Part shown: positions 41,783-43,009 of the stretch, in pieces
Position numbering within the stretch: position 1 is the first letter of the stretch
How the letters are laid out: each line of letters starts with the position of its first letter
Assembly (NCBI GenBank): GCA_022844125.1
Contig: JALHMI010000012.1
Span: 62,001-126,000, forward strand
Length of the DNA: 64,000 bases
Direction of reading: 5' to 3'
Source: Pirellulales bacterium
Lineage (GTDB): Bacteria > Planctomycetota > Planctomycetia > Pirellulales > PALSA-1355
Program-made: the position numbers and the translations under genes
Notes under the pieces: model-generated
The model's database searches: none
The model's input: the letters and a program-made list of their open reading frames with translations, nothing else
What the model was told of the DNA's origin: nothing

Positions 41783-43009
41783 ATGGCCAACACCGCCCTC
41801 ACCGCCGAGCTCAAGAACGAAGCCCAGCGATTGGGGTTTTCGCTCACGGGCGTCTGCGCCGCGGTCGAGCCCACGGGGATCGAGCGGTTCGGCGAGTGGC
41901 TCGCGGCGGGTTATGCCGGCGAGATGCACTACCTGGCCGGCCGAGCCGAAGCCTACACGCACCCGCGGCACGTGCTCGATGGCGTTCGCAGCCTGCTCGT
42001 GCTTGGGTTCCCGTATCGTACCTCTGAGCCGGAGCCTCCTCAACCGATGCGCGGTCGGGTGGCGCGTTACGCCTGGGGCGAAGACTATCACCAAGTGCTG
42101 TGGCGGAAGCTCAAGGAGCTGGAGAATCTTCTGCTGGCCCGCGAGCCGCAGGCCGCGGTACGGACGGTCGTCGATACCGCGCCGCTGCTGGAGCGCGAGT
42201 TCGCCGAGCTGGCCGGCTTGGGCTGGATTGGCAAGAACACGCTGCTGCTCAACAAGCACGAGGGGAGCTACTTCTTTCTGGCGGCGCTGCTGACGGATGT
42301 GGAACTGGAGATCGACGCGCCACACGCGATGGATCATTGCGGGACGTGCCGGGCATGTCTCGACGCTTGTCCGACCGAGGCGTTTGTCGCGCCGTATGTG
42401 CTCGACGCCCGCAAATGCATCAGCTATCTGACGATCGAGCTGAAGTCGCCCATTCCCGTCGAGCTGCGCGGCGGGCTGCAGGATTGGGTGTTCGGCTGCG
42501 ACGTCTGCCAGAACGTTTGTCCCTGGAACCATCGGCCACGGTTGACCGAGGAGCCCGCACTACAACCCCGCGCCGAAACAGGGACATCACTGAATTTGCT
42601 GCGCGCGGAAACAGGCGCGGAAACGGGGACATCACTGAGCGCGGAAACGGGGACATCACTGAATTTGCTGGAGCTGTTTGAGCTGGGCGACGCGGAGTTC
42701 AGGCGGCGCTTTCGCGATACGCCGCTGTGGCGGCCGAAGCGGCGCGGCATCCTGCGAAACGCGGCGATCGTGCTGGGGAATCAGCGGGCAGTGGCAGCGA
42801 TCCCGGCGCTCATTCGCGGATTGCATGATGCCGAGCCGCTGGTGCGCGGGGCGTGTGCCTGGGCGTTGGGGCAGTTCACGAGCGAGGCAGCACGGCGCGA
42901 ACTACGATTGCACTTGAGCCTAGAGAGCGAGGAGATCGTTCGCCAAGAGATCGAGCACGCCTTGACTGAGGCTAAGGCCGACGCTCCGTCGGCGATACCT
43001 CCGGGCTAA
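41783..43009 (+). CDS. queG: Epoxyqueuosine reductase
   Basis: A 408-residue QueG, the cobalamin- and iron-sulfur-dependent enzyme that makes queuosine from epoxyqueuosine in tRNA. Two ferredoxin-type clusters are visible: CGTCRACLDACPTEAF (about residues 186-201) and CDVCQNVCPWN (about 238-248). A C-terminal HEAT-like part follows (LRNAAIVLGNQ, AIPALIRGLHDAEPLVRGACAWALG). Between them, residues about 265-296 are an in-frame repetitive insert of ETGTSL units absent from ordinary QueG. The ATG at 41783 (MANTALTAEL) is preferred over the TTG at 41765. Confidence 0.94.
   Translation: MANTALTAELKNEAQRLGFSLTGVCAAVEPTGIERFGEWLAAGYAGEMHYLAGRAEAYTHPRHVLDGVRSLLVLGFPYRTSEPEPPQPMRGRVARYAWGEDYHQVLWRKLKELENLLLAREPQAAVRTVVDTAPLLEREFAELAGLGWIGKNTLLLNKHEGSYFFLAALLTDVELEIDAPHAMDHCGTCRACLDACPTEAFVAPYVLDARKCISYLTIELKSPIPVELRGGLQDWVFGCDVCQNVCPWNHRPRLTEEPALQPRAETGTSLNLLRAETGAETGTSLSAETGTSLNLLELFELGDAEFRRRFRDTPLWRPKRRGILRNAAIVLGNQRAVAAIPALIRGLHDAEPLVRGACAWALGQFTSEAARRELRLHLSLESEEIVRQEIEHALTEAKADAPSAIPPG
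42575..42670 (+). repeat. Short direct repeats inside queG
   Basis: GAAACGGGGACATCACTGA occurs at 42620-42638 and 42644-42662, with a one-base variant (GAAACAGGGACATCACTGA) at 42575-42593 and a truncated piece (GCGGAAACAGG) at 42605-42615. The first and last copies continue with ATTTGCTG. The reading frame is kept, adding about 32 residues between the second iron-sulfur cluster and the HEAT-like tail. Confidence 0.9.

Follow-up and report, generated by a model that had tools for sequence, protein, structure and literature searches.

The queG gene lies in the stretch of DNA analysed here (64 kb, hereafter the window) and carries an array of short repeats inside its coding sequence. The features of interest, all on the forward strand, are as follows.

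41783..43009, + strand: queG, tRNA epoxyqueuosine(34) reductase, 408 aa, ATG start
42338..42526, + strand: two [4Fe-4S] motifs (CGTCRACLDACP ... CDVCQNVCPW), residues 186-248, intact
42570..42670, + strand: repeat array in the ferredoxin/HEAT linker, residues 264-296
42575..42593, + strand: repeat copy 1, GAAACAGGGACATCACTGA, with one mismatch, followed by ATTTGCTG
42603..42614, + strand: truncated head GCGCGGAAACAG, family D2
42620..42638, + strand: repeat copy 2, exact, inside the 24-nt unit GCGCGGAAACGGGGACATCACTGA (42615-42638)
42644..42662, + strand: repeat copy 3, exact, inside the unit 42639-42662 and followed by ATTTGCTG
42737..42970, + strand: C-terminal HEAT-type helices, residues 319-396 (helices of the model; HEAT/alphaRep chain matches)

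The curated score, the cluster cysteines and the fold all agree with the assignment of the product as QueG. It scores 340 bits against TIGR00276 (E 1.2e-101; curated cut-off 200), aligns with PDB entry 5d08 at E 3.7e-53 and keeps the invariant cysteine columns C186, C189, C192, C196, C212, C239, C242 and C246. An AlphaFold2 model adopts the QueG fold (pTM 0.84), and a Foldseek search with this model gave TM scores of 0.81-0.83 to 5d08/5d0a (0.83 for 5d0a_C). The pLDDT falls below 50 at residues 268-288, within the array, and again in the C-terminal tail; the surface loop proposed in the preliminary description of this DNA thus corresponds to a linker that is predicted to be disordered. Because the QueG of S. 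thermophilus changes from its ferredoxin region, ending at residue 257, to its HEAT domain, starting at residue 258 (PMC4646009), we place the array at the ferredoxin/HEAT domain boundary.

The 19-mer of the array, GAAACRGGGACATCACTGA, encodes ETGTSL units, and the order of elements between the CDVCQNVCPW motif and the HEAT-type helices is GCGCCGAAACAGGGACATCACTGAATTTGCTGC / GCGCGGAAACAG / GCGCGGAAACGGGGACATCACTGA / GCGCGGAAACGGGGACATCACTGAATTTGCTG. The two exact copies, the single-mismatch copy and the truncated piece were all recovered where they had first been described, and the reading frame runs through them unbroken. The start-to-start distances of successive copies are 33, 12 and 24 nt, all multiples of three. 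Three matches to the 19-mer in the 64-kb window are far beyond chance, the mean in dinucleotide shuffles being 0.01. Since the genome is a draft of 27 contigs and short tandem repeats are prone to mis-assembly, one could ask whether the array is an artefact of assembly; the copies differ from one another by an A/G mismatch and in their tails, the whole array spans no more than about 100 nt with an open frame, and we find this explanation scarcely credible.

To establish whether there is an insert at all, the length of the linker was taken as the distance from VCPWN to FRxRFR in 58 distinct QueGs of the order. This distance is 32 residues in 52 of them, 31 in two, 36 in two, 40 in a genome of another genus (G049) and 56 in the window genome, so that 56 of the 57 other QueGs fall between 31 and 36 residues. 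The insert is absent from the QueG of the three genomes of the same family (G001-G003) and from all the other QueGs compared, as the alignment proposed at the outset was meant to reveal, and among the full-length matches read in a 397-genome survey only the QueG of the window genome was split at the linker. The repeat stretch covers 33 residues, in keeping with the original estimate of about 32, while the net gain is smaller than that estimate implied, at 24 aa (72 nt). With 69 of these 72 nt due to duplications, what is left is a single unit that exceeds the native linker length by a residue, and the initial event could thus have exchanged native bases instead of simply adding to them. There is also a likeness between PRAETGTSLNLLELF and PRAGTTNLDLVGLF, which is native to G002. 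The change therefore does not look like a simple, clean insertion; native bases may have been exchanged, or the sequence may be partly native.

The fit of one unit to the native length within one residue speaks for an explanation in which ordinary linker sequence duplicated itself, as a native minisatellite, and its likeness to repeats elsewhere is a coincidence. The direct tandem units and their multiple-of-three spacing are indeed those of slippage minisatellites; the queG unit differs from these in belonging to a dispersed family. We searched the window genome (G000, 6.44 Mb) with sequence patterns and found 22 places matching AAACGGGGACATCACTSA with up to three mismatches, compared with 2 for the reversed control, and 20 matches to AAACGGGGACATC with at most one mismatch, compared with 1 for the control. 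After likely coding coincidences were removed by inspection, about 11 loci remained, queG among them and about 10 elsewhere. The exact full 19-mer was not found in this genome outside queG, and the relatives of the queG repeat were recognized through close variants such as AAACGGGGACATCACTCA. The genome-wide count suggested earlier therefore shows that the repeat is not confined to queG and that it belongs to a small family of related sequences, partly in the form of intergenic palindromes.

Coding DNA can match the core of the repeat by chance, which is a point in favor of a native origin. Exact 14-mers at C7:110767 and C13:218502, together with a match in G121, were set aside as coding coincidences, apparently of the KGDIT or NGDIT type; from their translated context, we take these motifs to fit the proteins at the three places. 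The queG unit has a GAAAC head that is missing from the C7 and C13 coding matches, and a match of 17-18 nt to a palindromic family that can be recognized independently is improbable by chance. Codon use bears on the same question. ACA and TCA are rare in the genes of the window, with relative use of 0.12 and 0.10; they make up 8 of the 33 codons of the array and none of the 375 in the rest of queG (Fisher p 8e-10, which overstates the case because the array is made of non-independent copies of a single unit). The direction of this bias is clear, and it points to array DNA that is foreign to queG. Taken with the confinement of these rare codons to the array, a native minisatellite appears unlikely.

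The members of the family outside queG, with its AAACGGGGACATCACTCATTT hairpins, differ in their state of preservation. Direct copies and one inverted copy lie at C1:329884-329962, in the gap that separates two long ORFs of convergent orientation, with a hairpin z of -5.2; the copies at C4:136930-136982 give a hairpin z of -4.0, and an inverted pair similar to those of C1 and C4 is visible at C3:40227. Several degenerate arms occupy C16:94601-94729, again in a gap between long ORFs (z -0.5). The queG array is built of single arms repeated directly in tandem; the inverted partner is missing, and a hairpin role was rejected for the array (folding z +0.35). As its copies are direct tandem arms and not inverted pairs, local tandem duplication explains most of its length. 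Short internal duplications of the head are found at many loci of the family (CAAACAACGGGGAT/CAAACAACGGGGGCATC and TTCAGCGCAAACGG/TTCAGCGCAAACGGGGACATC), as are duplications of the tail (GGGACATCGGGACATCGCTCA). Outside queG the head duplications are about 14 nt, a length that would disrupt a frame, and the whole would fit one duplication-prone family under frame selection in queG.

Outside the window genome, a search across the order (297 genomes) found exact ACGGGGACATCACTSA in two genomes only, within coding sequence in G121 and apparently between genes in G213 (JANXOJ010000423.1). The pattern GGGGACATCACTSATTT, run over 392 genomes of the phylum, gave 0 matches even in the window genome, as the real copies break it. 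Two further observations concern repeats of the window genome. At three places close to the ends of contigs, C18:165501 (L089), C7:375010 (L092) and C24:225 (L098), GGGGACATCAC runs into an identical (A/T)CGTCTGTTCGGCACGC, a picture that an insertion sequence landing at one fixed position in repeats of this family would give. At C17:86920 and C17:102439 (L096, L097) a longer repeat has more than 80 bp of common 3' flank, and its heads differ by a duplication of GGGACATCA.

A mobile intergenic repeat, domesticated or drifting in a loop, was the original interpretation; the dispersed family and the disordered site uphold it in part, and a transposase flanked by the repeat does not appear. Transposases of the Y1 and REP type are present in the window genome, as had been thought worth checking, with ten Y1_Tnp matches. 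Five of these were compared with the curated NF047646 model (REP-associated tyrosine transposase), and all fell below its cut-off, with E values down to 1.5e-20; one Y1_Tnp gene passes the IS200 model. The flanks of the ten Y1_Tnp genes contain no GGGGACATCACT. Two REP-type transposase genes are bracketed by repeats of a similar plan and of other sequence, one at C23:1015 (L077) by inverted AAAnGGGGACGGGAGTC repeats and one on C17 (L075) by AAAAAGGGGTCAGAACTATTT. An origin of the queG repeat family from a transposase of the RAYT type is plausible. Several GGGGTCTRTCACTYAGGA hairpin repeats occur near another REP-type transposase gene, at C6:79459 (L076), and apparently form a separate REP family.

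REP elements are short, palindrome-forming and mostly intergenic sequences, some of which lie in frame within genes and add 20-30 aa as dimers or groups (PMC3733652, Di Nocera et al. 2013). Like REP/REPIN sequences, the family described here is dispersed above chance and lies in gaps between long ORFs at C1 and C16. In structure it gives a mixed picture, with a palindrome or inverted pair at C1, C4 and C3 and none at the queG array or C16. It departs from REP/REPIN sequences in its roughly 11 loci, where the copy number of REPs is usually above 100 (PMC2817692), in the lack of a cognate RAYT flanked by the queG repeat in the window genome, and in its inverted pairs, whose long arms take the place of the short REP hairpin. 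The GTAG or CGTC tag that marks the foot of that hairpin was not apparent when the repeat heads were inspected by eye. Because two usual features, copy number and the flanked cognate RAYT, fail, we call the family REP-like and not REP. The queG array resembles the known in-frame intragenic REPs in being absent from orthologues, in its open frame and in a sequence shared with a dispersed family, and differs from them in carrying direct tandem half-elements. Rickettsia palindromic elements also sit in frame in genes that are likely still functional (PMC3733652); they are palindromic, whereas the queG array is not.

The explanation we favor (with a probability of roughly 0.77) is that an arm of a low-copy REP-like repeat entered the queG linker, expanded there by in-frame tandem duplication and is tolerated as a loop. 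The palindromic family would first have been spread by a RAYT-type transposase. One arm would then have entered between the ferredoxin and HEAT parts and grown by tandem duplications of 33, 12 and 24 nt that preserved the frame, presumably through slippage or unequal exchange, and the ETGTSL units would make up a disordered loop at the surface of QueG, which accepts it, presumably with its activity retained. The window genome has one QueG gene, and a search of it for QueH as a backup enzyme found none; with all the cluster cysteines kept, this argues that queG is still needed, and the insert is probably tolerated since no second epoxyqueuosine reductase was found. The likeliest effect of the array is none, as a tolerated disordered loop in a QueG that would remain active.

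One may also suppose that the array was domesticated, being kept for some benefit of the extended linker, perhaps to tRNA binding or to contacts between domains. The linker adjoins the C-terminal domain, for which a contact with tRNA has been proposed (PMC4646009), and the frame was held across three duplications; purifying selection on the remaining QueG would hold it equally well. The array is predicted to be disordered, is of low complexity, is missing in all other QueGs and retains its rare codons, and we consider domestication very unlikely.

The linker of 40 residues in G049 provides a second case. The QueG on contig C125 of that genome has 8 additional residues (24 nt; L044/L111, 10294-10315) containing GGTGCCTGGGGGAACGCCCCAGCC, and GGTGCCTGGGGCAACGCCCCAGCC recurs elsewhere in the genome at least four times (L112, L113, L116, L118; control 0), once in an inverted pair. 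This repeat is REP-like and unrelated in sequence to that of the window queG, so two genomes appear to have gained REP-like DNA independently in the same linker, and its presence there in another genus suggests that the linker is a tolerant landing site. G049 also carries another QueG, on C116, whose linker is normal, and its contamination is estimated at 5%; for these reasons the function of the C125 QueG is less certain. A wider proposal, which we regard as rather doubtful, is that unrelated palindromic repeats have landed again and again in the ferredoxin/HEAT linker of planctomycete QueGs, and that REP-like DNA regularly supplies the conserved enzymes of these bacteria with new disordered linkers that later grow by frame-preserving duplication.

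In-frame REPs are already known, with targets that include tRNA pseudouridine synthase and tRNA synthetase genes and with different REPs at about the same recB site in two Xanthomonas species (PMC3733652). The queG array is a further case, peculiar in its half-elements and its low copy number. It is a recent-looking example of an intergenic repeat turned into protein sequence, being absent in all relatives seen, and its host appears to be the sole epoxyqueuosine reductase gene of the genome. With the independent case in G049, which affects this linker too, the tolerance of the site becomes testable.
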